Source: Procambarus clarkii (taxonomy: Eukaryota; Arthropoda; Malacostraca; Decapoda; Cambaridae). Taken from it: DNA of 64,000 nucleotides. Position 1 is the stretch's first letter. Each line of letters begins with the position of its first letter. Shown one piece after another: positions 12,719-61,654 of this stretch. The stretch is from assembly GCF_040958095.1 (NCBI RefSeq), contig NC_091208.1:8654548-8718547 (forward strand). Reading direction: 5' to 3'. The position numbers and the translations under genes were made by a program. Under the pieces are notes generated by a model. It had not been told where the DNA came from and did no database searches. It worked only from the letters and a program-made list of their open reading frames with translations.

Positions 12719-12759
12719 CTCTCATCCTGTAACTACACTTAGGTAATTACACTTAGGTA

Positions 12760-12761
<2 letters not shown>

Positions 12762-12841
<80 letters not shown>

Positions 12842-30445: not shown

Positions 30446-30559
30446 ATTTCTAGTGTGTGGTCTGGTCAACATACTTCAGCCACGTTATTGTGACTCATCG
30501 CCTACATTGAGCTTTAATCTGCCGTGTTGAATACAAAGAAAAATATCATTACAATATTA

Positions 30560-38440: not shown

Positions 38441-38977
38441 GGACTGGATGAAAAAACGTAAAAATGACCCCTCACTTGCTCTAGTGCTCTTGGGAGGTGG
38501 TATATCTTTGGAGTGTATAAATACTCCGAAATTACCATCTCTTTTAAGGGTCTGAGCAGGTGGTGGAGTGGGTTAAGGCGTACCTCTTATGCCAGTTGCT
38601 GGAAGGCTTCTGTGCTGGCTAGGGTTCGAGTCTCCTGGTGGGAAAGTGTTCTAAAGTTGTATACTTCACTCTCGTGTTTAGGAGAGTTGTGCCTTAAGCA
38701 TAGACAGTGTTCTCCCATATTAACAGGGACTGGATGAAAAAACGTAAAAATGACCCCTCACTTGCTCTAGTGCTCTTGGGAGGTGGTATATCTTTGGAGT
38801 GTATAAATACTCCGAAATTACCATCTCTTTTAAGGGTCTGAGCAGGTGGTGGAGTGGGTTAAGGCGTACCTGTTATGCCAGTTGCTGGAAGGCTTCTGTG
38901 CTGGCTAGGGTTCGAGTCTCCTGGTGGGAAAGTGTTCTAAAGTTGTATTCTTCACTCTCGTGTTTAGGAGAGTTGTG

Positions 38978-38982
<5 letters not shown>
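38441..38982 (+). mobile_element. Tandem pair of tRNA-like SINE units (286-bp period)
   Basis: GGACTGGATGAAAAAACG at 38441 recurs at 38727, and the two units are almost identical. Each has GGTGGTGGAGTGGGTTAAGG (A-box-like) and GGGTTCGAGTCTCC (B-box-like) about 55 bases apart, typical of RNA polymerase III internal promoters. The second unit runs into (TA)n, the likely 3' tail of the family. Upstream of the boxes is an unusual leader with TATAAATACTCC. Confidence 0.65.
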
Positions 38983-39121: not shown

Positions 39122-39124
<3 letters not shown>

Positions 39125-42100: not shown

Positions 42101-42619
42101 GTGCAACCGTCAGGCGCTTCCTTTGGGTAACTTTTGGCATTTTGTAAATTAAAAAGATCACAATTACAGTACAGTAATATCCTTCACAATTGAAGCTAGC
42201 CGCGCGAGTTCACGGTAAACAATGGGAACACATGGCCCGTCGGAGTACATACTAGGTCCGTGGGAAAAAAAATACCTAGTGCCTATACATACTATAAAAG
42301 GTATTTAATAAGAAAACAAAGACTTTTGCTTAATAAAAACTGTTTCAAAATATTTTATTAATAATAATTTACAATTTTCTTCATTAAAGTGAATCATTTT
42401 AAAAGAAAATTAAGATGTAATATATGACTCTGGACGATCCAGGTCGGTGGCGGCCTGGTCGCCATGTGAGGGGACGCTGATGCCACAACAAACCCAATAC
42501 CGACTGTCGGTAATATCGACCGCAGACCGGTATAGCAGGCTCTAGCTACTGGGCTCCCAAACCGGTCGTTAATACCAGCAGATCGGTATAAAAGAGGCCG
42601 TTAAATTGAGTGGATACTG
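39122..42619 (-). mobile_element. Tigger element, copy 2 (complete, open transposase)
   Basis: Terminal inverted repeats CAGTATCCACTC...AAC(A/G)GCC at 39122 and 42619, flanked by TA on both sides within a (TA)n. Length 3498 bp. It contains the duplicated segment (39507-39935) and an uninterrupted transposase gene. It is the best preserved mobile element in the window. Confidence 0.95.
40200..42140 (-). CDS. Tigger (pogo-like) transposase, full-length
   Basis: Start chosen at MPKVTQRKR (42140-42138, context ACAAAATGC); an in-frame ATG at 42161 adds MIFLIYK. About 646 residues from the chosen start. N-terminal HTH (HARAAAEFNIGKSTVSDIKK), CENP-B-type DNA-binding domain (ending DGWVGRFKARHN), and DDE/D catalytic residues in YNADETGF, LLLLDNAPAHP and QPMDQGVI. 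An acidic region (DSDDSDDSDDDSDD), a helical LEQVEELIEYSI and about three 25-residue repeats complete it. All expected catalytic residues are present and no stop interrupts the frame. The enzyme would cut and paste the element at TA sites in the nucleus. Confidence 0.95.
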   Translation of the reverse strand: MPKVTQRKRLTVAQKLELIKKLDKGYSHARAAAEFNIGKSTVSDIKKQKDTLLKYVSTTECATSGAACSRKTVKSGQYPQLDAAVYKWFIQHRTIGMAIRFEELKVAASKLAIQLGIKDFSASDGWVGRFKARHNISNTKKISGEASSADPTNVDSFKAKLNEYIVSNNLRKYQVYNADETGFMWRAVPSTSLTSRMQENIPGRKISKERLSVLLCANADASHRTKCAVVGKSKNPRALKNIMQALPVIYYNSKKSWFNQIIFTDWFENHFCKEVREFQINKCGIKASEVKALLLLDNAPAHPISKLISRDGRIKCMALPPNTTSLIQPMDQGVILAAKRMYQTAMLEDVLVVLPSEEDELTGKDTRAQRTLENLKKYTIREAIFHWARLWNKVKETTLTNSWKKLLTERPRCEAAVSDSEFEGFENEANDFEGFEETIRTMLLQAGQGVQVNDINEWLENDYDPGYELLTEEQIAQSVLGNDSDDSDDSDDDSDDVGEALPRGVGYQKRLEQVEELIEYSIKSKHEVIGNFYVHLTALKQCLKTLARENQIQTKIDKFMISTVREKSSSTSDAAPVDAELPSTSRGASASNECSTSHAAPADAEFPSTSRGTSASNECSTSHVAPADAEFPPSRDKSSTNDIKYD

Positions 42620-42640
42620 TATATATATATATATATTATA

Positions 42641-42727: not shown

Positions 42728-42731
<4 letters not shown>

Positions 42732-43144
42732 CCCAGGGCCAAACACTATTTCCTTGTGTAAATTCATACATCGCTGTAAAAATGTATACAATGTCACGAA
42801 ACAGAGATTTAGGTAAATGTATAGAGAAGGAAATGTAAAAGACATTGCTGAAAACCTTTATCTGTAGCAGTCCGAATCATTATCCCTTTTCCCTTCATCT
42901 TCCCCTTCCTTCCCTCCCCCTCACCCTCTCTTCCTCTCTCCCTCTCTTCTCTACAAACTTTTGTATTTTCTCCCCATCAAACAGTGGCTGTCAATATAGT
43001 TGGGAAAACATTAAATCAGCATTTACATGAGATGAAGTTAGGGTGCCCTTATTACACTGAGTCTCCGTTAAATGACGAATCTGAGTTATTAATATAAGTG
43101 CAATAGTGTAATTTGGCATTACATATCAAGGCTGTTCTCTCTCC

Positions 43145-43552
43145 TTGTGGCCACCTGCTGACTCTAGGCTTACTGCTCTGTGGCCACCTGCTGGCTCTAG
43201 GCTTAGTGCTCTGTGGCCACCTGGTGACTCTAGGCTTACTGCTCTGTGGCTACTTACTGCCTCTAGACTTACTGCTCTGTGGCCACCTGCTGGCTCTAGG
43301 CTTACTGCTCTGTGGCCACCTGCTGGCTCTAGGCTTACTGCTCTGTGGCGCCCTGCTGGCTCTAGGCTTACTGCTCTGTGGCCACCTGCTGGCGCTAGGC
43401 TTACTGTTCTGTGGCCACCTGCTGGCTCTAGGCTTACTGCTCTGTGGCCACCTGCTGGCTCTAGGCTTACTGCTCTGTGGCCACCTGCTGGCTCTAGGCT
43501 TACTGCTCTGTGGCCACCTGCTGGCTCTAGGCTTACTGCTCTGTGGCCACCT
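43145..43552 (+). repeat. 33-bp minisatellite A
   Basis: About twelve copies of a unit containing GTGGCCACCTGCTGGCTCTA and GGCTTACTGCTCT. Degenerate copies recur at 45000-45035 and 55945-56125. The period is a multiple of three, so all frames are open. Confidence 0.95.
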
Positions 43553-43559
43553 GACCGTA

Positions 43560-44100
43560 ACACTAACATTAAAAATCACCTGTTGAATGGTTAAATTTTG
43601 ACAACTACTGGCCTCGGAACAGGGTACACAGTAGCTGAATGTCCCCAACACTAACAAATGCGACGATCACCGTATTACACAGTAGATATATGATCCCAGC
43701 CCGCTGCCGACAGCAAAGTTTAATGGATGCTTTGTGCACTCAAAATTTTAAAACTTTCAGCATTAATTAAGGAATAAGTGTCTTTTTATATAAGTAAAAT
43801 AAAATTACAGAAAATAAATACAGTAAAATTTTATGTTAAATTTATACATGTGTTTACAAATTTAAAAAAATAATTATAGCCTTTTTTTTAATCTCATATT
43901 AACGTAAAAGTTTTATATTAAAATATTTTCTTGTCGTTACCTAATCAAATTTAAAAGGTAATAATTATTAATATCCTGCACACATATGGTCGTGGTTTTC
44001 TATACCGATTTAATGGGTAATTGTTTAATTGAATTTTTTTATGTTTCATTCTAACAAAAATAGTTTTAATATTATGAATACCTTATTAATATCCCCTTTG
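43560..44100. other. Non-coding array block with AT-rich spacer
   Basis: It contains a GGTACACAGTAGCT segment, then strongly AT-rich sequence. Related blocks are at 45400-45900, 47790-48300 and 56170-56640. No gene. Confidence 0.6.
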
Positions 44101-44407
44101 TGTACCGTATTCTTAGGCCACTGTCACAGTCGTCAGTAAGTGGGGATCACTTAGCTACTGGGTACCATTCCTTCCTTCCATTCCACCCTCCACCCTACAA
44201 CCTTCCCAGTCCTATCCCAAATCCTTATCCTGTAACGGGATGCAGGTTTTGCAGATGCAGTGCACACTGCATCAACACAGTGCAGTGTTGAGTGCAGAAA
44301 TATTGAGATATTGTTATTGAATTCAAGAAACAACCAGAAAGCAAGTGTTTAACTGTGCCTTACAATGATCACTGCACTGAGCAGTGAGTCCATTCACATG
44401 TCAGGGT

Positions 44408-44985
44408 CCCCACATTCATGAGGGGTTCTGCTTAGTGCATGACGTCACTGGGGTCCTGCTTAGTGCATGACGTCACTGGGATTCCGATTAGTGCATGACG
44501 TCGCTGGGGTCCTGCTTACTGCATGAAGTCACTGGGGTTATGCTTAGTGCATTACGTCACTGGGGTCATGCTTAGTGCATGAAATCACTGGGTCCTGCTT
44601 AGTGCATAGCGTCATTCGGTTCCTGCTTAGTGCATGACGTCACTAGGGCCCTGCTTAGTGAATAACGTCACTAGGGTCCTGCTTAGTGCTTGACATCACT
44701 GGAGTCCTGCTTAGTGCATGACGTCACTGGGGTTATGCTTAGTGCATGACGTCACTGGGGTCCTGTTTAGTGCATGACGTCGCTGGGGTCCTGCTTAGTG
44801 CATGACGTCACTGTGGTTCTGCTTAGTGCATGACGTCACTGGGGTCCTGCTTGGTGCATGACGTCACTGGGGTCCTGCTTAGTGCATGACGTCACTGGGG
44901 TCCTGTTTAGTGCATGACGTCGCTGGGGTCCTGCTTAGAGCATGCCGTCACTGAGGTCCTGCTTAGAGCATGAAGACACTGGGAT
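44408..44985 (+). repeat. 28-bp tandem array bearing TGACGTCA, block 1
   Basis: About twenty units of TGCATGACGTCACTGGGG followed by TCCTGCTTAG. Most keep the palindrome TGACGTCA or a one-base variant. TGACGTCA is the full cAMP response element recognised by CREB/ATF bZIP proteins; binding here is not shown. Confidence 0.92.
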
Positions 44986-45036
44986 TAAGTACTCTGTGAC
45001 CACCTGCTGGCTGTATGCTTAGTGCAATGTGGCCAC

Positions 45037-45395
45037 CTGACCAAAACACCAACAACAAGAAACACCAGCGTGACCAAAACACTAACAACAAGAAACACCA
45101 GAGTGACCAAAACACCAACAACAAGAAACACCAGCGTGACCAAAACACCAACAACAAGAAACACCAGCGTGACCAAAACACCAACAACAAGAAACACCAG
45201 CGTGACCAAAACACCAACAACAAGAAACACCAGCGTGACCAAAACACCAACAACAAGAAACACCAGCGTGACCAAAACACTATCAACAAGAAACACCAGC
45301 GTGACCAAAACACTATCAACAAGAAACACCAGCGTGACCAAAACACTATCAACAAGAAACACCAGCGTGACCAAAACACTAACAACAAGAAACAG
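45037..45395 (+). repeat. 33-bp minisatellite B
   Basis: About eleven copies of ACCAAAACACCAACAACAAG plus AAACACCAGCGTG. A two-unit version is at 47722-47785 and a single decayed unit at 56125-56165. Confidence 0.95.
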
Positions 45396-46082
45396 CTGTT
45401 GAAAGGTGAGTTTCTGTATCAACCACTGGCCTCAGAACACGGTACACAGTAGCTAAGTGTCCCCCCACACTCTAACAACTGTGACAACCACTGTAGTACA
45501 CAGTATCTAAGTTATACCTTCTCACGATCGAAAGTAAAGTTTAATCTTTTGCGTGTATATTGTACACATAACGTTTTATAAATTTGTATTGGATGTGTAA
45601 TAAAAGTAGTGCCTAAACATATAAATAATTTTTTCGTACAAATTTTTTTTTTAATTTTGTGCTAAAATAAAAACAATTAAATAACACAAAACAAAATTTA
45701 AACTGATTTTTTTTAAATTGTATATTGTTAAACAAACCCTATTATCAATATTTTTGTAACGATTTAATTATATTTAAGTAATAAATAATAATAAAATGCT
45801 TTTCCTTCCACACTATCAAGGTTGGTCGGGGTTTCCTGTACTACCTTTATGGGTAACTTTTATATTCAATAATTCATACGTTTCATTCTAACAGAAATTT
45901 TGTGTTGATACTCTGAATACCCTATTAATATCCCCATTGTGTACCATATTCTAAGGCCACTGTCACAGTCGTCAGTAAGTGGGGATCACTTAGCTACTTG
46001 GCACCATTCCTTCCTCCACCACCTCCTTTGCCGTCCTATCCCAAATCCTTATCCTGTTATTGGATGCAGTGTCTAACAACAT

Positions 46083-46352
46083 AACCAGTCCAGGTTATGG
46101 TGTGGCTGAGGGCGTGGAGGCTGGTGTTGATGTTGTTCAGGGCCTTGTTGAGGTTGGTGATGCAGTGCCTGGTTATGGTTATGTTGTGGCTGAGGGTGTG
46201 GAGGCTGGTGTTGATGTTGTTCAGGGCCTTGTTGAGGTTGGTGATGCAGTGCCTGGTTATGGTTATGTTGTGGCTGAGGGTGTGGAGGCTGGTGTTGATG
46301 TTGTTCAGGGCCTTGTTGAGGTTGGTGATGCAGTGCCTGGTTATGGTTATAA
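46083..46352 (+). repeat. 84-bp minisatellite, block 1 (about 3 units)
   Basis: Each unit contains GTTATGTTGTGGCTGAGGG, GTGGAGGCTGGTGTTGATG and CAGGGCCTTGTTGAGGTTGG. In one frame it reads VVAEGVEAGVDVVQGLVE; both strands and all frames are open because 84 is divisible by three. Confidence 0.95.
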
Positions 46353-46585
46353 CAATAAGCACTACAATAAACAGCATGGAAATGATAGATCCAGACAACT
46401 TCTTTATGCGTGATATCCAAACTTCTGTAAACATAATTGATATCAACACGAGCGAGACAGATTTTGCAAGAGAAATTGTCAACAAGCCCATGCACTCAGC
46501 CCCGGGTCCAGACTCATGGAATTCAATATTTATAATGAAATATTTTTCTAAACTGTATTCTAAACTAAAAAATGAGTTAGAAGCA
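46353..46585 (+). pseudogene. LINE reverse transcriptase fragment in macro-unit (copy 1)
   Basis: With frame changes: DPDNFFMRDIQT, then NTSETDFAREIVN and MPMHSAPGPDSWNSIFI. This is the segment just before the catalytic palm of the LINE at 32196. Equivalent fragments with the same start and end points lie at 48635-48810, 50565-50770 and 58806-59210, so it was duplicated as part of the unit. Confidence 0.75.
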
Positions 46586-46892
46586 TGATGATGTTGCAAC
46601 ACGTCTTCCTACTTGTTACACTGCAACATTGTTCAGATTTTGGACATTTCTTTCTCATTCACTTGCTATGTAGTATTTAAGTACGGGTTAAAGGGAAGAT
46701 TGCGACGCCGTTGTCAAGGAGACATCACCCTCCTCCTCCTCTTGACTGATGTTTACACAATTACGCCATTCACCGCTGTTCATTCACCGAATTCAAGAAA
46801 CAACCAGAAAGCAGGTGTTTAACAGTGACTAACAATTATCACTGCAAACAGTAGTGAATCCATTCTTATGTCAGAGTCCTCACATTCATGAG

Positions 46893-47705
46893 GGGTCCTG
46901 TTTAATGCATGACGTCACGGGTCCTGTTTAATGCATGACGCCACTGGGTCCATGTTTATTGCATGACGTGACTAGTCCTGCTTAGTGCATGATGTCACTG
47001 GGGTCCTGCTTAGTGCATGACATCACTGGGGTCCTGCTTAATCCATGACGTCACTAGGCTCGTGCTTAGTGCATGACGTCACTGGGGTCCTGCTTAATCC
47101 ATGACGTCACTGGGCTCGTGCTTAGTGCATGACGTCACTGGGGTCCTGCTTAGTGCATGACGTCACTTGGATCCTGCCTAGTGCATGACTTCACTGGGGT
47201 CCTGCTTAGTGCATGACTTCACTGGGGGTCCTGCTTAGTGCATGACTTCATTGGGGTCCTGCTTAGTGCATGAATTTACTGGGGTCCTGCTTAGTTTAAG
47301 ACGTCATTGGGGTCCTGCTTGGTGCATGCCATCACTGGAGTCCTGCTTAGTGCATAACATCACTAGGGTCCTGTTTAAAGCATGCCGTCACTGAGGTCCT
47401 GCTTAGTGCATGACGTCACTGTGATCCTGCTTAGTGCATGACGTCACTGAGGTCCTGCTTAGTGCATGACGTCACTGGATTCCTGCTTAATCTATGACGT
47501 CACTGGGATCGTGGCTAGTGCATGACGTCACTGGGGTCCTGCTTAGTGCATGACGTCACAGAGGTCCTGCTTAGTGCATGACGTCACTAGGGTCCTGCTT
47601 AGTTCATGACATCACAGGGGTCCTGTGTAGTGCATGACGTTACTGGGATCATGCTTAGTACATGACATCACTGGAGTCCTGGTGAGTGCATGACGTCACT
47701 GGGAT
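46893..47705 (+). repeat. 28-bp TGACGTCA array, block 2
   Basis: Close to thirty units, more diverged than block 1; several have GACATCA or GACTTCA in place of the palindrome. Confidence 0.92.
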
Positions 47706-48436
47706 TAAGTACTCTGTGGCCACCTGAACAAAACACTAACAACAAGAAACACCAGCGAGACCAAAACAACAACAAGAAACACCTGTTGAAAAGTGAGTTT
47801 CTGTGACAATCACGGACCTCAGAACATGGTACACAGTAGCTAAGTGTCCCCCACTCTAACAACTGCGACGACTAGTGTAGTAGACAGTCTCTAAGTGATC
47901 CCTAATCACTGCATAGTTTAATGTGTATAATGTTTCCTAAAAATTTTTGTGTTCTCAACTCCATAACTAATATAACTAAAAGTTTCTTTTTATATAAATT
48001 AAATTATTTGACTAAAAATTTATGTAAAAAATTTTGTGTTAAAATTCTTAAAACTTTATACGAAATAGAAAATAACTAAAAAGATTTTATTTACTTTTAT
48101 ATTAGTAGTAAAATTTTTATATCAATATTTTTCATGATACAAAATGTTTGTATTTAATAAATAATAAATATTACCTTGCTTATCCTCTCACACACAAATC
48201 ATTGAATTGTCGTGATTTTCTATACCTCTTTAATGATTAACTTTTATATTTAAATTTTTTTTTTCTTTTTTACCAGAAATTTTATGTTGATACTTTCAAT
48301 GCCTTATTAATATCCGCTTTGTGTACCATATTCTTAGTCCATTGTCAAAGTTGTCAGTAAGTAAGGATAACTTAGCTGCTGGGCACCAATCCTTCCTCCC
48401 CCCCGTCCAATCCCTAATCCTTATCTTGTAATTGGA

Positions 48437-48628
48437 TGCAGTGCCTGGTTATGGTTATGTTGTGGCTGAGGGTGTGGAGGCTGATGTTGATGTTGTTCAG
48501 GGCCTTGTTGAGGTTGGTGATGCAGTGCCAGGTTATGGTTATGTTGTGGCTGAGGGTGTGGAGGCTGGTGTTGATGTTGTTCAGGGCCTTGTTGAGGTTA
48601 GTGGTGCAGTGCCTGGTTATGGTTATAA
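48437..48628 (+). repeat. 84-bp minisatellite, block 2 (about 2 units)
   Basis: Same unit as block 1, with private changes (GATGTTGATG for GGTGTTGATG). Confidence 0.93.
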
Positions 48629-48634
48629 CAATAA

Positions 48635-48810
48635 ACTGCATGAAAGTGGAAGATCCGGAAAACTTCATTATTGTATTATCCAAACTCTTGTAAAAATAAT
48701 TGATATCAACACGAGCGAGGCAGATTTTGCAAGAGAAATTGTCAACATCTCCATGCACTCGGCCCGGGTCCAGACTCAAGGAATTCAATATTTATAATGA
48801 AATATTATTC
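48635..48810 (+). pseudogene. LINE reverse transcriptase fragment in macro-unit (copy 2)
   Basis: Contains NTSEADFAREIVN and MHSARVQTQGIQY (frameshifted from MHSAPGPDSWNSIF). Confidence 0.7.
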
Positions 48811-48829
48811 TAAGCTATAAAAGGAGTTT

Positions 48830-49160
48830 AAAAACATGATATTGCAACATCATATGATACTTAGGTCATAGAGTTAAGAAGCATGATGATGTTGCAGCTT
48901 ATCCTAATATTTGAGCATAGAGTTTAGAAGCAAGAAGATGTTGCAACATATCCTAATATTTGATCATAGAGTGTAGAAGCATGATGATGTTGCAACATGT
49001 CCTAATACTTGGTCATAGAATTTAGAAGCATGATGATGTTGCAACATATCCTAATCCTGGATCATAGAGCTTAGAAGGAAGATGACCGATGACGTTGCAA
49101 CATATCTTAATACTTCGATCATAGTGTTAGGAAACATGATGGTGTTGCAACACGTCTTCC
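48830..49160 (+). repeat. About 49-bp tandem repeat with GATGATGTTGCAAC
   Basis: Six imperfect units of CATAGAGTTTAGAAGCATGA followed by TGATGTTGCAACATATCCTA. Only one unit is present in the other macro-units (46580, 50820, 59270). Confidence 0.85.
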
Positions 49161-49325
49161 TACTTGTTATACTTCAACATTGTTCAGGTTTTGGACATTT
49201 CTTTCTCATTCACCTGTTATATAGTATTTAAATACTGGTTAAAAGAAAGATGCGACGCCGTTGTCATGGAGACATCCCTCCTCCTCCTGACTGATGTTTA
49301 CACATTTAAGCCATAAACTGCATAC

Positions 49326-49394
49326 ATGTCCTGTTTTATGCCCTCCAAAAGAAGCAAACAGTCGGGTTTGTCATATAGGAAACTGGGCCTTCAG
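49326..49394 (+). other. Exon-like short frame followed by a 5' splice consensus
   Basis: ATG opens a 23-codon frame (MSCFMPSKRSKQSGLSYRKL, then GLQ) ending at CAG|GTAAGA (donor at 49395). It lies about 95-100 bases downstream of a TATA-like GTATTTAAATAC and the X-box-like GTTGTCATGGAGAC (49260-49273). The same segment occurs at 51028 and 59486, where the frame meets a stop (GGCTTTTAG) and the donor is lost. It could be the first exon of an unrecognised gene or element. No downstream exon found. Confidence 0.3.
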
Positions 49395-49399
49395 GTAAG

Positions 49400-50040
49400 A
49401 ATTCATCGTCTAAATGTCGCCTGTATCTGTGTGAGGAGCGAGGTGGTTGAGAGATGGTGTTGGGTCGCAGAGGGAGAGAGAGAGAGAGCCTCGACTCCCT
49501 GCCTTGGAAGCTCAAGGAAATAAATGATAGATTTTACAGGATGTGTTCTGAGATCATTGGGGGTGGAGAGTCCTCAAAGGAAATTTGAAAGTGATTGATG
49601 GACAACGAGTGTTTTCATGTCCACTAATTCAGTAGTGAATAAGATAATATTAATGTAAGAAATGAATGCGTAATTACACAAAAAATTCTCATCGTCCCAA
49701 AAATAATGCTTCCTCTTTATCTTCAAAGCAATTGATTCTCAATGTTGCAAGGAGTATAGATTATCTGGAGGCATGAAGAGAGGGAAGATGGATGTCCTGT
49801 CGAGGGGAGACTAGGTAATCTTGCTCTACAGTTGCATTGATCAGCTGAAGAAGAATTTGGGTTGCTGTAAACGTCATAGACTTGTCAACCATAGAGTGTA
49901 CCTAACTGAGTGCTTCATGCAAAGTTCTTCAGCTATGTCTGACGTCGTTGTATATCTTTATCTGTCGATCATGTCAGTGTTGCTGGTCAGCATACCTCAG
50001 GTGATGGTCTAGTTGTGTGCAGAAATGTTGTGTTATTGGG
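49400..50040. other. Non-coding macro-array block
   Basis: It includes a GA-rich stretch (49468-49490) and a segment with GAAGATGGATGTCCTGTCGA shared with 51612. No gene seen. Confidence 0.55.
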
Positions 50041-50562
50041 ATACAGTTCCTGGTTATGTTGTGGCTGAGGGTGTGGAGGCTGGTGTGGATATTGTTCAGG
50101 GCCTTGTTGAGGTTGGTGATGCAGTGCCTGGTTATGGTTATCTTGTGGCTGAGGGTGTGGAGGCTGGTGTTGATGTTGTTCAGGGCCTTGTTGAGGTTGG
50201 TGATGATGTGTCTGGTTATGGTTATGTTGTGGCTGAGGGTGTGGAGGCTGGTGTTGATGTTGTTCAGGGCCTTGTTGAGGTTGGTGATGCAGTGCCTGGT
50301 TATGGTTATGTTGTGGCTGAGGGTGTGGAGGCTGGTGTTGATGTTGTTCAGGGCCTTGCTGAGGTTAGTGATGCAGTGCCTGGTTATGGTTATGTTGTGG
50401 CTGAGGGTGTGGAGGCTGGTGTTGATGTTGTTCAGGGCCTTGTTGAGGTTGGTGATGCAGTGCCTGGTTATGGTTATGTTGTGGCTGAGGGTGTGGAGGC
50501 TGGTGTTCATGTTGTTCAGGGCCTTGTTGAGGTTGGTGATGCAGTGCCTGGTTATGGTTATA
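50041..50562 (+). repeat. 84-bp minisatellite, block 3 (about 6 units)
   Basis: Six units. The resulting frames of about 190-267 codons are repeat artefacts. Confidence 0.95.
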
Positions 50563-50564
50563 AC

Positions 50565-50770
50565 AATAAAGACTTCGATAAATAGCATGAAAGTGGTAGA
50601 TCCGGACAACTTCTTTATGCGTGATATCCAAACTCCTGTAAATATAATTTATATCAACACGAGCATAGTAGAATTTGCAAGAGAAATTGGCAACATGCCA
50701 ATGCACTCAGCCCCGGGTTTCAACTCATGGAATTCAATATTTATAAAGAAATATTTTACTAAACTAAAAA
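50565..50770 (+). pseudogene. LINE reverse transcriptase fragment in macro-unit (copy 3)
   Basis: Contains DPDNFFMRDIQTPVNI, EFAREIGNMPMHSAPGF and SWNSIFIKKYF. Confidence 0.75.
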
Positions 50771-51345
50771 AAAAGTTTAGAACCTTGATAATGCAAAATA
50801 TCCTAATACTTAGGTCATAGAGTTTAGAAGCATGATGATGTTGCAACACGTCTTCCTACTTGTTTCACTTCAACATTGTTCAGATTTTGGACATTTCTTT
50901 CTCATTCACTTGTTATATAGTATTTAAATACCGGTTAAAGGGAAGATGCGACGCCGTTGTCATGGAGACATCACCCCTCCTCCTCCTCCTGAGTGATGTT
51001 TACACATTTACGCCATAAACTGCATATATGTCATATTTTATGCCCTCCAAAGGAAGCAAACAGCCGGGTTTGTCATTTAAGAAACTGGGCTTTTAGGGGA
51101 GAATTCATCGTCTAAATGTCACCTGTATCTGTGTGAGGAGCGAGGTGTTTGAGAGATGGTGTTGGGTGGCAGAGGGAGAGAGAGAGAGCCTCGACCACCT
51201 GCCTTTTGAAACTCAAGGAAATATATGATAGATTTTACAAGACCTGTTCTGAGATCGGGGGGTGGGGGGGGGTCCTCTAAGCAGATTTGAAAGTGATTAA
51301 TGGACAACGAGTGTTTTCATGTCCACTAATTCAGTAGTGATTTAG

Positions 51346-51457
51346 ATGCAGGCGATGAGTCACAACGTGGCTGAAATATGTTGACCAGTCCACACACTAG
51401 AAAGTGAAGGGACGACGACGTTTCGGTCCGTCCTGGACCATTCTCTAGTCGATTAGC
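51346..51457 (-). mobile_element. Short Penelope-like 3' fragment with hammerhead-like motif
   Basis: On the minus strand it repeats the PLE right end: GGTCCAGGACGGACCGAAAC, then TCTAGTGTGTGGACTGGTCA and GTGACTCATCGCCTGCAT. It is flanked by TAGTGATTTAG and TAGTGATTCAG, an 11-bp target duplication with one mismatch. It is therefore a 5'-truncated insertion of only about 112 bases. Confidence 0.75.
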
Positions 51458-51967
51458 TAGTGATTCAGATAATATTAAAGCAAGAAATAAATGAGTAGTT
51501 ACACTAAAAATTGAAGTCTTCCCTAAGTTAATGTTTCCTCTTCATCTTTAAAGCAATTGATTCTCACAATGTTGCAAGAAGTATAGATTACATCGAGGCA
51601 TGAAGAGAGGGAAGATGGATGTCCTGTCGAGGGGAAACTAGGTAATCTTGCACCGCAGTTGCATTGATCAGCTGAAGAAGAAGTAGAGTTGGTGTAAACG
51701 TCTTAGACCTGTCAACCATAGAGTGTACCTGAGTGTTTGATGTAAAGTGCTTCAGCTATGTCTGATGTCCGTGTATATATATATCTGTCGAGCATGTCAG
51801 TGTTGCTGGTGAGCATACGTTTGGTGATGGTCTGGTTGTGTGCATAAATATTAAATATTGTGTTATTGCTGTTGAATTGAAGTAACAACCAGAAAGCAGG
51901 TGTTTAACAGTGCCTTATAATGATCAAAGCAAAGAGCAGTGAGTCCATTCGCATGTCAGAGTCCTTA

Positions 51968-52100
51968 CAATCATGAGGGGTCCTGCTTAGTGCATGACGT
52001 CACTGGGGTCCTGCTCAGTGCATGATGTCCCTGGGGTTCTGCTTAGTGCATGACGTCACTGGGGTCCTGCTTAGTGCATGACGTCACTGGTCTCCTCTCA
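51968..52100 (+). repeat. 28-bp TGACGTCA array, block 3
   Basis: About four to five units, the shortest of the three arrays. Confidence 0.9.
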
Positions 52101-52336
52101 CTAGCTGTCAGTACTTGGTCACGTGACCCTAAATGGGTCACTGAGTACTGTGAAGTTGTTCTACTTTACACCATCGTGTTTAACGGAAATAATTCATTAA
52201 CATACAGAGCCTGACACCAACCTCATTACATAATACACTGTAATATTACAGCCAATTTTCCTGGGTAACGTGTCAAGCCGTCCTCCTAATAGAACGTTGC
52301 ATTTTGACGTATAGTCTACCCAAGACCAAAAGAAGT

Positions 52337-54897
52337 TTTTTTTTATATTTATTTTTACATGCAAAGCATGCAACTTAAATACAATAAAAACAACACAGAA
52401 TACAGAACAGAACAAACGAAAACAATAGACCACCGGCCAGAAGGGCCGATAACATTTCACAATAAACCACAAACACGATAAAGGCATAGAAAAATACAGC
52501 ATACAACAAGGCACAAAGTAGAATACAATGGCAAACTAGCAAGCACAGTAACATCACAAAGCAAAACCGTCATAAAACAAAACATACATCAAAGGCACAA
52601 CAGGGAACATAACAGTACAATCACAATACATTCCAAACAAAACATAAAGAACAAACATGTACAACAGGTAAAGCACGCCATAACAAACAGAAGGCAAAAC
52701 AAAATGGCACAACCGAACAAAGAGCACTCGCCAACAGCCTGAAGGGCACACAATATGACATACACAAGAGCATACGACATCCACAACCGAATACACAAAT
52801 ACACAGGAACCGCACACCCACCCACCAGCCATACAAAGAAAACCTACAACATACACCGGAGCACGCAGGAACCGGGAAACAAAACCCACCCCACCCACTC
52901 ACACACACACACACCCCATCCTCACCGCACACAACAGGAAACACAGAATACACAGAAATCATTTGCGAGGAACAGCGTGAGAAATGTACTTCTCCGGGAA
53001 AACAGCGGAAGGATACTTCTTCTTGCAAGCCTCCCAGACTAAATCTTCAATGTCGGTAGGGTTTTTGATCCATCATAAACTCAGGAACATCGATATCGGG
53101 CGGCATCGGCCAACGCCCTAGGTCACTGACGCAAGTCGCATAACGAGGCCGGGGAGCGCCATCCACGCCCATCGAGGAAGCAGACGACACTGGAGAAGCG
53201 GACGAGGGCCGCCTAGACTGCCACGCCGTCGCACACATAGGAGCAGGGGCCGGACGACGAGACTGTAGCACCTCCATGGATACCGCAGGAGACACAGAAG
53301 AGACTGCTGGAGACGGAAGAGGCAACAAGACCGCTGCCGAGGAAACGGGTAACGAGGAAGGGGCTACAGAACTCTCAGAGCGAGCATCCTTTCACAACAC
53401 CATCACCAGGCCACCCCTCTCACCACCAACCACAGCAGGGGGGAACCACCCCCCACGTAGAACCGGAGCCACCCCACGCAGGCAACGCACCTGAAGCAGG
53501 ACCCTCGGACACCAGACCAGGAGGGGAGGCCGAAACGCCGGCACTGGCATCCTCAGGCAAGTGTACCTCCGCCACCACCATAGTGTGCACCACATCCGGA
53601 GCCACCCCACCGTCAACGGAAGGACGACACTCGTCTATGTCGCCAATTTCAGCCCACGCAGAAGAACGCCAGGAACGCTTAGGCTCGGGCTGCACATCAT
53701 CAGACCCGGAGGCAGACTCAGCGACCCACGCAGCACTAGCCGGGCGAACCGACGCACGCCGCAGTACGGAAGCCTCCTCAACCACATGGGGCACCAGGCC
53801 AGGCACAGGAGGGAATGCTGGATCCACCCCAGCTCCCAGCACAGCCGGAACAGACGGCGAGGGTGCAGGGACCGGGACAGACACAGCAGAGGAAGAACTG
53901 GAAGACGAGGGGTCCGAGCAAACGGCAGTCGGAAGAGGCTCAGAGACACCAGCCGGAGCAGGCGGAGCACTAGGCGAGGACACAACCTCCGGAGGAGATG
54001 CGGCAACAACAGGGGGCGCAACAGGCGGAGCAACAGCTGATACAGAGGGCACCTCCTCAGCCGAAGAGACGTCCACACCCACCGAATCATCCCCCACAGG
54101 AAGGGGCGGAAAATCCTTCTCACTGAAGAGATTCGCCGGTGCAACAGCAGGCGCAGAACAGGCAGCAGCCTGATGGCCCAAAAGACCACAATGGTAACAC
54201 GTTCGCGGCTGGCGGGCGTAAAACACCCGAACGTTGTACCCCATAATGCGCACAGAGGACGGAATATCCGCCCGGAGTCTCATGCCCAGGGTGCGAATAT
54301 TAGACCTCACACCCTTAAGAGGACTAGAAGACACCACGTTCACCCTCACACTATAACTACCGCGCCAAACCGCCGAAATACCGCCGTAGCAGAGCCTCTG
54401 GAAACTCAAAGGGAGCCCCATGCACACTGATGTAAGTAAGTGCACCACTTCTATCCGAGAGGGTTACAGTGCCCGCACCATCCGGCAGGGGTAGTGTCCG
54501 CCCCTCGTATCGCCTGAGAAAATCGCGATACGCCACCTCCTTCGTGAACTTCACAATCGCCTTACGGGCCGTAAGGCGATTGTGAAGTTCAACTACCATC
54601 AACTGGTGTTGATGGTAGTTGGTAACGGCCAACTCGACCCCATAAATCTCAAACACAGGGACAGAGAACATTTCACAAGCCAGTGCAATCTCCAGGTAAC
54701 CAGCCCGCACAGAGAACTCTAGTCCCACAGACTGAGCGCGGACGACAGGGGGTAGAGGGACCCCCATCGTAACGCCACGTCAGCACAGGCGAGCAGAGAC
54801 ACACCCACCCCCAACCAGCCGAAACTGGCAAACAACACCAACTGCTGGAGCGCCGATGCAACACGTCTGTCCCCTACCGAAGCTAGGGCCAGACCTC
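52337..54897 (-). mobile_element. Poly(A) retroelement encoding only a CCHC protein, copy G1
   Basis: A perfect 14-bp duplication AGACCAAAAGAAGT flanks it (52323-52336 and 54898-54911). The left end begins with T(9) and T-rich sequence, that is, a 3' A-rich tail on the minus strand. The 2561-bp body has about 130 bases of leader, one long coding region and a roughly 620-base 3' region. No reverse transcriptase is present. These are marks of LINE-type target-primed insertion of an ORF1-only or half-LINE element mobilised in trans. Confidence 0.85.
52959..54767 (-). pseudogene. RRM-like + CCHC zinc-knuckle (gag/ORF1-like) protein, copy G1, frameshifted
   Basis: It starts MGVPLPPVVRAQS. An RRM-like region holds YEGRTLPLPDGAG, SGALTYISVHGAPFEFPEAL and SNIRTLGMRLRADIP. 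Then VRVFYARQPRT precedes the CCHC knuckle CYHCGLLGHQAAAC. A DFPPLP patch and a long Ser/Pro/Val/Ala-rich, probably disordered region follow. The C-terminus (VWEACKKKYPSAVFPEKY) matches copy G2 (LWEAYCVRFPAAEWPDKY). Frame changes lie at about 54400, 53420 and 53050. An in-frame insertion with two hairpins lies at 54546-54620. The role would be nucleic acid binding in a retroelement particle, inferred from the fold order. Confidence 0.7.
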
Positions 54898-54911
54898 AGA
54901 CCAAAAGAAGT

Positions 54912-55549
54912 CGTGGAAAACAGAAGCGGCTCGCGAAAGTGACATACTGTCCCGTTTTCTGTTATGGGTCTTCTGGTTGGTTAGGATAAGGGCACTTTAA
55001 TACGACAGTTTCTTGACGTTTGGAAGCGTTAGGAGGATTAGCTGAATGTGTATTCTTTTCAAATTTGTTATGCTTCCAATGTAGGGGAAAAAATGGATAT
55101 TATTGCATTTAAGCTTTAAATTGTGCCTTTGATCCTTGCCCTAGATATCTTCCGTAAACTCTCTAAGACAAGTTTCTAAAAAATAATAACGATTTTCTAG
55201 ATTTTGGAGACATAAACAATTACAAAATATATATTACCCAACGCCAAAAACTGTTACATTGTATAAATTTTTACATCGCTGTAAAATTGCCTACAATGTC
55301 ACAAAACAAAGTTTCAGGTAAGGGTAAAGAAAATACTTTGCTGAAAGCACTTATCTAAAGCAGCCCAAATCAGAACCCCTTTTGCGCTTCATCTTCTTCA
55401 CCCTCTTCCCTTCTCATCCTTTCTTCTATACAAACCTCAGCATTTTCTTCCCATCAAACCAGAGCTGTTAATATTGATTGGGAAAACATTTACATAAGTT
55501 GATGTTAAGTTGCCTTTATTACACTTACAATACAATTTCCAATCAAGAA
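54912..55549. other. Non-coding macro-array sequence right of G1
   Basis: Continues the interrupted unit (TCGTGGAAAACAGAAGCGG onward). 55236-55520 parallels 42733-43020. No gene. Confidence 0.55.
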
Positions 55550-55820
55550 TGTAGCACTCGGCGTAGGCAGTTAATGTAATCGTCTACAAGACGCTACAAC
55601 TTCGACACAGAACAGGCAGCAGACTAGGACCTCATCGAGCTATACAACGCTCTCCTACATAGAGCTCCGCGACTCCGGTCACACTCAGCTCTTTGCTCTG
55701 CTCCAAGCTCCATCTCAACGTCAACGACACTGTTGTATCCAGGACTACTAAATAAATATGAAACTCACTAAAAACTGTGTATCTAATCTACCCAACAACC
55801 TAACATAATCGTACGTTACA
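55550..55820 (+). mobile_element. Possible solo LTR (271 bp)
   Basis: TGTAGCACTCGG at the start and CGTACGTTACA at the end give TGTA...TACA edges, with AATAAA near 55750. The related array unit lacks this stretch. No target duplication found, so boundaries are uncertain. An 11-bp inverted repeat (55809-55834) straddles the right edge. Confidence 0.35.
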
Positions 55821-56782
55821 TTGGTAACGTACGATAACACCATCCACTTTATAGTTTTTTAAAATGTTTCATCTTATTTAAATAATATTTTTTTTTTAAA
55901 TTATTAAAATAATAAAAGTTTTTGCTAAAATTTATAATTTAAGTACACTGTGGCCGCCTGCTCGCTCGAAGCTTATAGCTCTGTGGCCACTTGTTGGCTC
56001 TAGGCTTACTGCTCTATGGCCACTTGTTGGCTCAAGGTTTACGCTCTGTAACTACCTTTTGGCTCTAGGCTTAGTGCTCTATGATCAATTGTTGGCTCTA
56101 GGCTTAGTGCTATGTGGCCACCTGAACAAAATACAAATAACAAGAAACACCCTCGTGACCAAAACTGTGACGACCACTGTAGTACACAGTATCTCAGTGA
56201 TCCCTACTCACTGAAGACTGTAAAGTTTGATGTGTACACTGTACACCATAAATTATTGCAATATTAAAACCTCCACTGGAACTATCAACAATATAGTCTC
56301 TAAACGTTTCATCTTATATAAATAATATTTTTTTATAAATTATTAAACAAGTAACATAGTTTTTGCTAAAATTGATAAATATCTTAATGCTTAAAAAAAT
56401 TATTTGCTTTGCTTTTTATAATTTTATCTTGTTAATAAAATCGTAATATGAATATATTTGCAAAATACGAACTGTTGTATTTAAAAAGAAATAAATATTG
56501 ACATCCTGCTCTTTCTCCCACACTTATAAGGTTGTCTGGTCGTGATTTTCTATACCGCCTTAATGGGTGACCTCAATATTCAAAATTTTTATGTTTCATT
56601 CCACAAGAAATTTTGTTTTGATATTTCGAATACCTTATTAAAATCCCGTTTGCGTATCGTATTCTTAGGCCACTGTCACAGTCATCAGTAAATGGGGATC
56701 ACTTAGCTAATGGGCACCATTCGCTCCACCCCCCCCCCCCCACTCCTCCGTCCAATCCCAAATCCTTATCTTGCAATTTTAT

Positions 56783-57310
56783 GCAGTGCCTGGTTATGGT
56801 TATGTTGTGGCTGAGGGTGTGGAGGCTGGTATTGATGTTGTTCAGGGCCTTGTTGTGGCTGGTGATGCAGTGCCTGGTTATAGTTATGTTGTGGCTGAGG
56901 GTGTGGAGGCTGGTGTTGATGTTGTTCAGGGCCTTGTTGAGGTTGGTGATGCAGTGCCTGGTTATAGTTATGTTGTGGCTGAGGGTGTGGAGGCTGGTGT
57001 TGATGTTGTTCAGGGCCTTGTTGAGGTTGGTGATGCAGTGCCTGGTTATGGTTATGTTGTGGCTGAGGGTGTGGAGGCTGGTGTTGATGTTGTTCAGGGC
57101 CTTGTTGAGGTTGGTGATGCAGTGCCTGGTTATAGTTATGTTGTGGCTGATGGTGTGGAGGCTGGTGTTGATGTTGTTCAGGGCCTTGTTGAGGTTGGTG
57201 ATGCAGTGCCTGGTTATGGTTATGTTGTGGCTGAGGGTGTGGTGGCCGGTGTTGATGTTGTTTAGGGCCTTGTTGAGGTTGGTGATGCAGTGCCTGGTTA
57301 TGGTTATTAC
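56783..57310 (+). repeat. 84-bp minisatellite, block 4 (about 6 units)
   Basis: Six units, several with TTATAGTTATG in place of TTATGGTTATG. Confidence 0.95.
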
Positions 57311-57319
57311 AATAAACAG

Positions 57320-58805
57320 TGTAATGACCGCTTTACCCTGCCGTAATAACCGCGGCCTCTATTGTAATAACCCGATGTTCCCCAGTATTAATCCTGTTAT
57401 CTTGTTATCTCTCGTGATCGTAATATATGCTCTCTGTTGTACATCACTGTCTCTCTCCACTCAATACCCCCAGCTTAACACTGTTACAGTCCAGTATGAC
57501 CCCTCACTGGACTGCCACGTATGTAAGAGGAATATTAAATGAGGAAGATACACCAAGGACAAGGGTGATTCGCTGATTACTAATTATAAAATAAAAACCA
57601 TTAAAGCACTGCCACCACCTTCCCGACCAACCATACCTGAATGTGTCTATCACCGATCCCCCAGGAAGGCAAGGAATCAGTAACCATGGGACTCCGGGTA
57701 ATATGAATTTCAGTAATAAATTTTGGAAAATTAGTTTGTGTAATTTACGTTACTAATTTAAATCCAAGGGCAACTTTAGTATCGATTAATTGTTAGGAGA
57801 ACCTGGGGGGCTTCCAATACAACACCTAAAAATGACAAAGTAGCAAAATATATCAAAGGGGAGTTAAGTGAATACCACTGGACAAGCTATACAATTTATT
57901 TTATGAAACATGTAAATTAAGACAATTTGAACACATCACCTATTCTATTTCCCTAGAGGCACAATGGATATTTACCGAGGACACAAAACTCAAGTGCTAC
58001 GATACCTTAAATACCCGCACTACGGCCACGATGTTGATGGCTGCCCTCAGCCCCGAGGATACGGGCTTGCGGCCCTGTTCCTAATACACTCCCAAGACAC
58101 ACTGATGAAATTTAGTTTTTCCAACTTATTGCTGGGAAGGATTGCTCCTCCCACCATCTAATACAGCCCCAGGGCTCCACCCATTATTTTGGCACTGGCC
58201 AACCATTTAACACGTAGGCCTGAGGTCTGGCTCTCTAGGGCCAATAAGGACTTGGCCCTTATCTCAGGCCAATCACCTTCACTGATCTGTCGTGGAAAGC
58301 TACATGAATTTCTGAAGATTGAGTCAGCTCTCCCCAGCTACAGAGAAGGGGGACAAGGCGCGTCTATGGAGCCCAGGCACCTGCGAGCAATGTTTACAAA
58401 ACTGATAATTTATGTTCAAGCCTGTTTCCTCTAAGATAGGAGTAGGGACATTTGACTCTGCCTGGTATGGGGAAGGCCGCTGCTGAGAGGGAAAGAGAGG
58501 GAATGAGAGGGAAAGAGAGGGGATGAGAGGGGGAAGTTGAGTGGGAGAAGCCAAGGTATCCAAGACCACCCTACCCTCAGGTCAACCTCTTGACCCTGAC
58601 AAATGGGCGACAGGGGGGGGGGAAGAGGAGAGGAGACGAATGACGGCCAAGGGGAGGGGAGAAGGAAGGAGGGGAGAGGGAGAAGGAAAGGAAAGGAGAA
58701 GGAGAGGGAAAAGAGGGGAGAAGGGAGAACCAATGATCTGAGCCCCAGATCATTACAACTCCCCCTCCTCGAAAATTAAGAAATTTGTGTGTAAAGCAAG
58801 TTACA
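57320..58805 (+). mobile_element. Solo LTR or LTR-bounded remnant (1486 bp) with 5-bp target duplication
   Basis: Begins TGTAATGACC, ends CAAGTTACA, with AACAG on both sides (57315-57319 and 58806-58810). It interrupts the macro-unit between the 84-bp minisatellite and the LINE fragment; removing it rejoins AATAAACAG with CATGAAAGTG as in other units. It contains a GA-rich stretch (58480-58735). No protease, reverse transcriptase or integrase motifs are seen. Confidence 0.75.
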
Positions 58806-59210
58806 AACAGCATGAAAGTGGAAGATCCGGACAACTTCTTTATGCTTGATATCCAAACTCCTGTATTTTTTTTTCTTCTTAGGTGCATCACATCAATCAC
58901 CAATGTTTTAAACATAATATACAGTAATTAAATTTATGAATAATAGTAATTACATCTAATCTTAAAGGTATTCCCTGGTAATTAGTTAAAAATACCTCTT
59001 CAGCTGTGCAACTATGCAGCAAGGTTGCTCAGATGTATCAGCTACAGAACCTTTAATTGGAAGGATGTGCACCATTTTTTTAGCAATATATATCAACACG
59101 AGCGTAGTAGAATTTTCATGAGAATTGACAATATGCCAATGCACTCAGCCCCGGGTTCAGACTCATGGAATTCAATATTTATAAGGAAATATTTTCCTAA
59201 CCCCCCCCCC
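58806..59210 (+). pseudogene. LINE reverse transcriptase fragment in macro-unit (copy 4)
   Basis: EDPDNFFMLDIQTP at the left, then about 200 bases of extra sequence (58865-59085), then RIDNMPMHSAPGSDSW and NSIFIRKYF. A poly(C)/poly(A) stretch follows. Confidence 0.65.
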
Positions 59211-59689
59211 CCACCCAAAAAAAAAACAGTTTAGAACATTGAAGATGTTGCAAAATATCCTAATACTTGGGTCATAGAGTTAAGATGCATATTATGTTGC
59301 AACACGTCATCACATTTGTTACACTGCAATATTGTTCAGAGTTTGGACATTTCTTTCTCGTTCACTTGTTATATAGAATTTTTAATACCAGTTAAAGGGA
59401 AGATGCGACGCCGTTGTGATGGAGACATCACCCCTCCTCCTCCTCAGTGATGTTTACACATTTACGCCATAAACTGCATATATGTCATGTTTTATGCCCT
59501 CCCAAAGAAGCAAACAGCCGGGTTTGTCATTTAAGAAACTGGGCTTTTAGGGGAGAATTCATCGTCTAAATGTCACCTGTATCTGTGTGAGGAGCGAGGT
59601 GGTTGAGAGATGGTGTTGGGTCGCAGAAGGAGAGTGAGAGAGCCTCGACCCACTGCCCAGGAAGCTCAAGGAAATAATTTTTTTTTTTT

Positions 59690-61650
59690 TATTTTTTTTT
59701 TTTTACATGCGAACATGCGAATAAATACAATACAATAAATATAATAAAATAAGAAACCAATAACAAACAATCAGACAACAAAAAAATACAAAAGCACAAA
59801 GCAAATTAACACAAAGTTACACAAATACACTAAATACCGGCCTGAAGGGCCGACAACAAAATCACAACAATGAACATAAACACAATGAAACACAGGAAAA
59901 AGAAACAACAATACTGGACAGAAGGGTAACGGAAATACAATAAATACAACAAAACAGTCATGAAAAACACAACACCGGCCGGAAGGGCGCACAATAGGTA
60001 CAATACATTGCAAACAAACCACAGGTCACAGCAAGCACACTACAGACTACTCAAATTGTTCATACTTATCCGGCCACTCCGCCGCCGGGAACCGAACACA
60101 ATACGCCTCCCACAGTAACATGACGTTATCCGGAACAGGCACAGTATTAACAGTACGAGGATCAGGCATCAACTCCGGCACACCCACAACAAAACACCGA
60201 GCCCACTGTACCCAGATGGAAGAAGGGCACCACGGAACAGGATGCACGCGGTCAATAATGTCAAACCGCAGAGGATGCTGCGCATCATGCGCCACTCCGG
60301 AGGCCAAGACGAGAGGGAGAGGCTCCTTCCCTCGAGGCCGGGCAATGGGCAGCGCACTGGGAGCCTCCTCGGCCGCCTCACAGCGCTCCGCGTCAACCAC
60401 CGGACGTTGTTCCTGCCGGGACCCCCCACGCTTGGTATCCTTCTTCAGTACCAGCTTGATGCCTCGGCTCGCACCAGAACTCTCACCATCCACGTCAGTA
60501 CGAGCGACCACCCCCCACTGCGGAGAACCTTCTGCAGGAGAAAGAACAGGAGGTAAATCATAGGTACAAACATCGTCAACAGCAGACACATGGACGTCAG
60601 CCACCACCAGCGTCGTAGAGCGCGAAGCACCCAGAGGCGCCACATCATCTCCCGAAGCTCCACCTGCGTCGTAGTCCTCCGCATCAGCCCAAGCAGTAGA
60701 AGAACGCCTGGACCGCTTGGGCACTGGCCGCACATCCTCACAGCCGGAGGCGGACCCAGAACCACGGGCTTCACGAACCGGGCGAACCGACGCCCGTCGC
60801 AGAACGGCAGCAGCCTGCACCACAGGGGGAACCGGACCACACACAGCAGGAGGCACCGCAGCCACCCCAGCACCCAGCACAGGAGGAACCCGAGGGGAGG
60901 ACGCAGGGCCAGGGTCCACAGTCGAAGACGAGGAAGCCGACGGCGACGCTCCACAGGGATCACCAGGAAGGTCCACGGGAACAGCAGGGCCAGAGACATG
61001 GTCAGGAGGAACATCCGACGGCACCGCAACACCCGGAGGAGGGTCTGCAACAACCGGGGGAACGTCAGGTGACACTGGGGGAGCCGCAGCAGCGAACGGG
61101 ACGCTCACCTCCTCACCCCCGGAGTCCTCTTCCAGAGGGAGCGGCGGGAAATCCTCCTCACGGAACAAGTTCACAGGAGCGACCGGATCAGCAGTACACG
61201 CGGCAGCCTGATGCCCCAACAAGCCACACCGGAAGCAAGTACGGGGTTGCCGGGCATAAAACACACGCACGTAGTTCCCCAACAGCCGGACAGAGCACGG
61301 TATGTCCGACCTCAGTCACATCCCGAGGGTCCGAATGTTGGTCTTCACACCCGAATACGTGCCAGACGACAGTGAGTTCATCCGCACATTGACGACGGAG
61401 CCGTACCTCTGGAAGAATCGCCGGAGGAGAGTCTCAGGAAACTCCATGGGGGCGCCATGAACACTGACATACGTCACAGCACCACTACGGTCTGAAATGG
61501 TCACAGACCCGGTGCCGTCCTGTAGCTGCAAAGTACGTCCCTCGTACCTCCGTAAGAAAGCACGGTACACCGCCTCACCCACAAACTTGACAACAACACG
61601 GTGAGCAGTTACCAGCTCAATGCCATTGGATTCGCTCACTGGCCGCCAGA
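59690..61650 (-). mobile_element. Poly(A) retroelement encoding a CCHC protein, copy G2 (5'-truncated)
   Basis: The left end is a T-rich tail (59680-59703), then a 3' region with three partial GGCC-rich hairpins, then the coding region 60047-61639 on the minus strand. The leader and first part of the protein are absent. It interrupts a macro-unit after CTCAAGGAAATAA. Its 5' side abuts copy G3 in opposite orientation at about 61650. Confidence 0.75.
60047..61639 (-). pseudogene. RRM-like + CCHC protein, copy G2, one nonsense codon
   Basis: The frame of 531 codons from 61639 has a single stop at about 61318-61316: TGA sits where the related protein has Arg (LGM-R-LRADIP), consistent with a CpG transition in CGA. 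Order: YEGRTLQLQDGTG, SGAVTYVSVHGAPMEFPETL, NIRTLGM, then VRVFYARQPRT, the knuckle CFRCGLLGHQAAAC, DFPPLP, a Pro/Ser/Ala-rich region and the C-terminal LWEAYCVRFPAAEWPDKY. Apart from that stop the frame is continuous, so this copy is young or under recent constraint. No polymerase is encoded. Confidence 0.75.
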
Positions 61651-61654
61651 GGGC

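Follow-up and report, generated by a model that had tools for sequence, protein, structure and literature searches.

A probable small, decayed tandem array of one composite unit in the crayfish Procambarus clarkii

How do unrelated-looking sequences, among them several short tandem repeats, a retroelement scrap and a promoter-like segment, come to recur in one order over about 17 kb of a crayfish genome? The locus in question occupies positions 42729-59677, on the forward strand, of a 64,000-nucleotide stretch of Procambarus clarkii DNA (NCBI RefSeq assembly GCF_040958095.1, contig NC_091208.1, positions 8,654,548 to 8,718,547), here called the window. It comprises five head-to-tail copies (U1-U5) of one composite unit. 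Probably the locus is a tandem array, small and in decay, of a non-coding unit, and can be described as a low-copy macrosatellite or a local segmental duplication. An earlier note on this DNA had offered three options: a large satellite, an amplified non-autonomous element or a decayed multigene locus. The first is the best of them, and holds only in the sense of a low-copy, decayed local array with five copies in the window.

The 64-kb window was searched against itself and for tandem repeats, and 42.5-64.0 kb was read directly. Pooled over all copies, the blocks of the unit follow one another as L - A33 - B33 - K - B - G - C84 - D - E49 - F - X - Y - H - 28-bp array. A33 and B33 are arrays with 33-base-pair (bp) monomers, C84 and E49 are 84-bp and 49-bp arrays, B is AT-rich, and F is TATA-like as judged by eye. 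This arrangement in 42.7-59.7 kb is far beyond chance. The pieces noted earlier (28-bp, two 33-bp and 84-bp arrays, AT-rich spacer, probable reverse-transcriptase (RT) fragment and, by eye, TATA-like segment) do recur in one order and one orientation. All four minisatellites then described were confirmed; a fifth (49 bp, 48836-49152) had been overlooked, and so had K and G, the inverted arms that flank the AT-rich block. The blocks do exist, and the unit continues about 0.8 kb beyond the promoter-like block into X, Y and H. The features are as follows (LINE and SINE, long and short interspersed nuclear element; CRE, cyclic AMP response element; LTR, long terminal repeat; ORF, open reading frame).

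42729-43058, +, block L of U1, 70% identical to L of U5 (55234-55525)
43146-43553, +, 33-bp array A33 of U1, 12.4 copies
43565-44236, +, K, AT-rich B and G of U1; K and G are inverted relatives
44315-44421, +, H of U1, following G across a gap; C84-D-E49-F-X and most of Y are absent
44422-44983, +, 28-bp array of U1, with CRE octamer, 20 copies
44984-45037, +, A33 remnant of U2
45038-45394, +, second 33-bp array, B33, of U2, 10.8 copies
45390-46075, +, K, AT-rich B and G of U2; 45410-46015 folds as one large imperfect hairpin
46093-46350, +, C84 of U2, 3.1 copies
46351-46580, +, D of U2, probable LINE reverse-transcriptase fragment
46578-46770, +, F of U2, TATA-like by eye; X and Y are absent after it
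46785-46891, +, H of U2
46892-47703, +, 28-bp array of U2, 29 copies
47704-47726, +, A33 remnant of U3, 23 bases
47725-47783, +, B33 remnant of U3, preceded by the A33 remnant
47778-48437, +, K, AT-rich B and G of U3
48435-48626, +, C84 of U3, 2.3 copies
48627-48826, +, D of U3, probable LINE fragment, frameshifted
48836-49152, +, 49-bp array E49 of U3, 6.3 copies
49141-49300, +, F of U3, TATA-like by eye
49301-49645, +, X of U3, exon-like by eye
49646-50038, +, Y of U3, meeting C84 of U4 at a GTTATTG word (50032)
50051-50561, +, C84 of U4, 6.1 copies
50562-50776, +, D of U4, probable LINE fragment
50825-51015, +, F of U4, TATA-like by eye
51003-51347, +, X of U4
51348-51457, no strand assigned, SINE-like 110-base insertion in U4, with a 13-base target duplication (one mismatch)
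51458-51852, +, Y of U4
51870-51976, +, H of U4
51977-52096, +, 28-bp array of U4, 4 copies
52337-54897, -, insertion with gag-like ORF between U4 and U5, with a 14-base target duplication
55948-56121, +, A33 of U5, 5.3 copies, then a 43-base B33 match (56123-56165)
56163-56781, +, partial K, AT-rich B and G of U5
56781-57307, +, C84 of U5, 6.3 copies
57320-58805, no strand assigned, solo-LTR-like insertion near the start of D in U5 (TG...CA, 5-base duplication AACAG)
58805-59210, +, D of U5, probable LINE fragment, split by a second insertion near 58866-59089
59281-59677, +, F and X of U5, interrupted at 59677, where a T-rich tract and a gag-like element cut the copy short

The five copies share one orientation, as in a satellite, and each lacks different blocks; none of the five is complete. 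Because every copy in the window is incomplete, the spacing is not the steady 2.5 kb proposed earlier. Starts of K (43565, 45390, 47778) lie 1.8 and 2.4 kb apart, and starts of D (46351, 48627, 50562, 58805) lie 2.3, 1.9 and, into U5, 8.2 kb apart. In U1 there is no B33 array, apart from one degenerate B33-like stretch seen by eye, and everything from C84 to most of Y is lacking. U2 is without X and Y, U3 stops within Y, and U4 starts at C84, so that H, the 28-bp array, A33, B33, K, B and nearly all of G are missing at the U3/U4 junction. U5 spans L to X before the T-rich tract and the gag-like elements at 59.7-64 kb break it off, and L stands only before U1 and U5. The lengths of the arrays are private to the copies (20.1, 29.1 and 4.1 monomers for the 28-bp array; 3.1, 2.3, 6.1 and 6.3 for C84). 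GC content is 33-48% per kb across 43-53 kb.

Is the unit instead an amplified non-autonomous mobile element, for example a Helitron-like one with internal tandem repeats and captured scraps, which landed or was rolled out here in tandem? Helitrons and Helentrons are recognized by TC...CTRR ends, a 3' hairpin and a rolling-circle helicase. Twenty stretches cut from 42.7-55.2 kb (four blocks twice, and two stretches between U4 and U5) were searched over the 64 kb. Nineteen had no DNA match outside 42.7-59.7 kb at E<=1e-3, so a second location is wanting and the amplified-element option finds no support within the window. The exception lies in L, whose CT-rich part finds simple repeats at 13.06 and at 18.5-19.0 kb; a control stretch (37600-38981) likewise matched, besides itself, simple repeats only. 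Common unit ends were not found either, though no search aimed at ends was made. The inner tandem repeats, inverted arms and probable LINE scrap do resemble those reported for satellite-seeding elements, in the parts of the source consulted (PMC9659126). On balance a mobile origin is unlikely.

The inverted arms deserve attention in their own right. In the self-search, K and G of different copies appear as inverted matches of 78-85% over 34-46 bases. Arms of the same copy exceeded all 300 shuffles in each of four copies (scores 30, 37, 33 and 35, against largest shuffled scores of 24, 24, 24 and 29), and the best-aligned stretch differs among the four K-B-G copies. Folded as single-stranded DNA, the K-B-G segment of U2, one of the four, gave a z of -4.5 against 20 shuffles. 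The inverted repeats that define foldback elements and miniature inverted-repeat transposable elements (MITEs) are thus present in all four copies, as candidate termini. The likeness to such elements lies in the AT-rich core between inverted arms; the differences are that the arms here are short and imperfect, and that the segment occupies the same place in each of the four carrying copies. No DNA match to K, B or G was found outside the array in the 64 kb, and no target duplication was seen by eye at K-B-G.

Block D is probably a scrap of LINE reverse transcriptase, as judged from a match elsewhere in the window. By tblastn, D of U2 finds a decayed locus at 32784-32897 (E 9e-7), beyond which RT-like stretches are seen by eye. 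One of the three forward frames there, with stops written as X, gave a sub-cut-off RVT_1 match at about 34.15-34.35 kb (E 0.0067, 16.6 bits against a cut-off of 29.6), about 1.3 kb beyond the D-matching locus. D itself has no Pfam match. A comparison with PDB yielded no RT and nothing beyond three weak, unrelated matches (E 0.67-0.79). The similarity of D to the LINE at 9.7 kb was no better than that of shuffles (p about 0.1). D is open for 78 codons in U2 and 85 in U4 and frameshifted in U3; between U2 and U4, 15 of the 19 changed codons replace the residue and 4 are synonymous. It looks like a dead fragment. The LINE at 9749-12718 carries endonuclease and RT domains in a frame broken by one stop, and 11362-12762 is repeated at 13452-14845 with 95% identity.

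Was the block duplicated as a unit? The constancy of the LINE end points had been taken to show that it was, rather than being assembled by repeated insertion. These end points agree in U2 and U4; the left end in U3 has a 12-column gap, with frameshifts, and D of U5 is split by two insertions. Duplication as a unit is backed by the common order and junctions. Divergence was counted without gap columns, and for C84 only the two final monomers of each array entered the comparison. Within copy pairs, K, G, D, F, X, Y and H show Kimura two-parameter (K2P) distances of 0.055-0.256, or about 5-22% of aligned bases. With B and C84 excluded, no rate difference between blocks appears in four of the eight testable pairs (U1-U2, U1-U3, U2-U3 and U2-U5; p 0.25-0.78), so block divergence agrees with joint duplication in only these four. 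The AT core aligned better than the best of 200 shuffles in all six pairs, narrowly so in U1-U2 (144 against 141), and is therefore taken as part of the unit.

Divergence on this scale also bears on whether the array is an artefact of assembly. The sequence is repetitive and the array is known from the assembly alone. Copies that differ by about 5-22% in seven blocks, and insertions private to U4 and U5, two of them with target duplications, are hardly products of misassembly, and an artefact is extremely unlikely.

Several observations weigh against a simple tandem duplication followed by decay. In the other four pairs (U2-U4, U3-U4, U3-U5 and U4-U5) block rates still differ once B and C84 are excluded (p 0.0007-0.022), mainly through F or X being lower than the other blocks; some constraint, or patchy conversion, is therefore possible. 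Block B has K2P distances of 0.40-0.61 in six pairs, 1.7 to 4.0 times those of G in the same pairs, and C84 has distances of only 0.006-0.054. The proposed deletion at the U3/U4 junction is also affected. The word GTTATTG occurs four times on the forward strand of 42.7-60.0 kb: at the Y/H border of U1 and of U4, at the G end of U2 and at the U3/U4 junction. Since the exact word is lacking where G ends in U1, U3 and U5, the deletion route rests on the G of U2. Overall, block divergence fits duplication of a unit with a patchy later history, or with some constraint on F and X.

In the three pairs carrying both, B is 7, 15 and 23 times more diverged than C84. The signs of homogenisation are mixed: C84 is alike across its four loci, and the other blocks differ with K2P distances of 0.055-0.61; D, which adjoins it, differs at 14.5-21.7% of aligned bases. 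Measured against one consensus, 17 complete C84 monomers hold 25 changes, 22 of them distinct. At none of the four loci (U3 having only two complete monomers) is any position changed in all monomers, the nearest case being position 1, changed in three of the six monomers of U5. If the bases changed independently, a simple binomial puts the probability of finding no fixed difference among 84 bases at 4e-7 for a rate of 16%, 8e-6 for 13% and 4e-4 for 9%, the last being nearer to the divergence of F. Conversion between copies, or a recent spread of the array, may lie behind this likeness. The 28-bp arrays are unlike C84: their monomers differ on average by 0.139, 0.163 and 0.071 within loci and by 0.104-0.156 between loci.

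Could the locus be a decayed multigene cluster, with F as promoter, X as a first exon with a splice donor, and the rest as intergenic spacer? Of the blocks outside the arrays, F and X are among those with the least divergence, and X of U3 offers, by eye, an ATG, 19 codons and a CAG|GTAAGA donor; at the donor site U4 and U5 have a stop and no GT. No conserved reading frame was found in D, in C84 or in the six frames of U3-U4 compared with Pfam. These six long frames were submitted with stops written as X, and five had no family at E<=0.1. The sixth matched 12 families (E 3.5e-6 to 0.046), all below curated cut-offs and all on the antisense of C84, the best being PF04513, baculovirus PEP. The C84 consensus is open in four of six frames, one antisense frame showing by eye a heptad-like 28-residue pattern (50051-50561, 56781-57307). 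As a candidate coding array it was rejected: its 22 distinct changes in 17 monomers, a number with little power, fall much as they would in the absence of selection in each of the four open frames. The X-box formerly read into the promoter-like segment is at chance level: at up to three mismatches the window has five matches (two in F) and 3.3 are expected, and 20 of 100 shuffles reach five. No Rfam match reached gathering scores in the window. A decayed gene cluster thus has little in its favour and is decidedly unlikely.

A selected non-coding function might lie in enhancer arrays bearing CREs, in satellite RNA transcribed from F, or in an origin of replication at the AT-rich hairpin. The window holds 27 CRE octamers against 0.65 expected. 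Of these, 26 are exact octamers in the 28-bp arrays, though copying of one monomer alone yields this. Conservation is 0.917 at the CRE positions and 0.919 in the rest of the monomer. The exact octamer survives in 26 of 53 monomers; counts for 21 octamers range from 23 to 34, so the CRE is near the bottom of conservation, and its least kept base is the G of its CpG. As a functional candidate it was rejected, being no better conserved than neighbouring positions. Same-copy arms above every shuffle, and the lack of any fixed C84 variant, also speak for function, whereas the K-G matches across copies are modest, as given above. Such a function is very unlikely. Nothing tested, whether CRE, X-box, coding or Rfam, supports one, and no selected function is needed to explain the array. 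Two further candidates were set aside. CENP-B-box-like sites number 5 at up to one mismatch, against 6.6 expected. For a common origin of the minisatellites, two of ten monomer pairs fell below 0.05 against simple shuffles (A33-E49 0.016, C84-E49 0.02), which is unconvincing for ten comparisons. A sigma-70 promoter and terminator scan was at chance, and has no meaning for eukaryotic DNA.

For the decayed tandem array, then, the following history may be proposed. (i) An ancestral segment would have held a LINE scrap, a TATA-like segment, an AT-rich block flanked by inverted arms, and the seeds from which five short repeats grew. (ii) This segment would have been copied by unequal exchange or replication slippage. 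(iii) Slippage would have lengthened and shortened the arrays. (iv) One deletion may have arisen through a shared word of seven bases. (v) Gene conversion would have held the 84-bp arrays alike across copies. (vi) The AT-rich block, capable of forming a hairpin, would have changed fastest. Insertions with target duplications came later, in U4, in U5 and between them. A more speculative idea, improbable as it stands, is that the unit is a self-destabilising module: hairpins or fork stalling at the AT-rich block would cause breaks that drive both unit copying and the block's own fast change, and repair from neighbouring copies would keep the 84-bp arrays identical. If true, break-driven amplification and repair-driven homogenisation would operate side by side at one short locus.

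How does the array compare with known systems? The human macrosatellite D4Z4 likewise has a kilobase-sized tandem unit containing older repeats and a promoter-like segment, according to the portions of the report seen (PMC12376486). D4Z4 has 71% GC and a homeobox ORF, whereas the array here has 33-48% GC, no ORF under constraint, and few, diverged and gapped copies. PROsat, Pvc 20 and chicken HinfI/CR1, as described in part of one source (PMC9659126), share the trait of a short LINE coding piece within a tandem unit; here the probable LINE piece makes up about 200 bases of a unit of at least 2 kb, most of which is not LINE. Crayfish satellitomes, in the sections consulted, contain many minisatellite families beside longer tandem repeats, as here (PMC13130569, PMC7859515). 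Their families were called from reads by monomer, and no unit of five nested minisatellites was met in those sections. A structure of this kind was not found in the consulted parts of the literature (including PMC10454600, PMC13130569, PMC9659126, PMC12376486 and PMC7859515), subscription journals lying mostly outside the search. A 2-kb satellite of a land crab was not met with there either. Three repeat words or their complements were absent from the searched paper texts. Four exact words and one protein from the array had no relative among viral contigs, and one exact word had no match in prokaryote genome contigs, collections from which records of the window's own genome may be excluded.

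Alone, the locus is a curiosity with no function shown. It also lets the formation and decay of a composite tandem repeat be read: array positions are common, lengths are private, and gaps and insertions remain visible. Should arrays of this kind prove common in the genome, they would allow the effects of slippage, gene conversion and hairpin instability to be told apart at a single place.

The surroundings are rich in mobile sequences. Abutting the left end of the array is a pogo/Tigger-like transposon, which has TA repeats to either side. A CENP-B-like DDE transposon, which we take to be of pogo/Tigger type, is present as two copies (3944-7664 and 39122-42622) in inverted orientation, with inverted ends and 96.9% identity over 2.4 kb; the copy at 39122-42622 has TA repeats on its flanks. 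A 286-bp tandem duplication (38440-38982, 99% matches) lies immediately to the left of the TA repeat and transposon bordering the array. Gag-like ORFs at 53420-54463 and 60047-62640 have CCHC-type knuckles by eye and no Pfam match; near 61.6 kb two such ORFs run in opposite directions, and a near-perfect 47-base palindrome (54545-54591) lies inside the gag-like insertion. Further away, an RT with a sub-cut-off GIY-YIG match (28694-30139), presumably Penelope-like, is adjoined by 99.7% inverted repeats (28447-28837 and 30082-30472).

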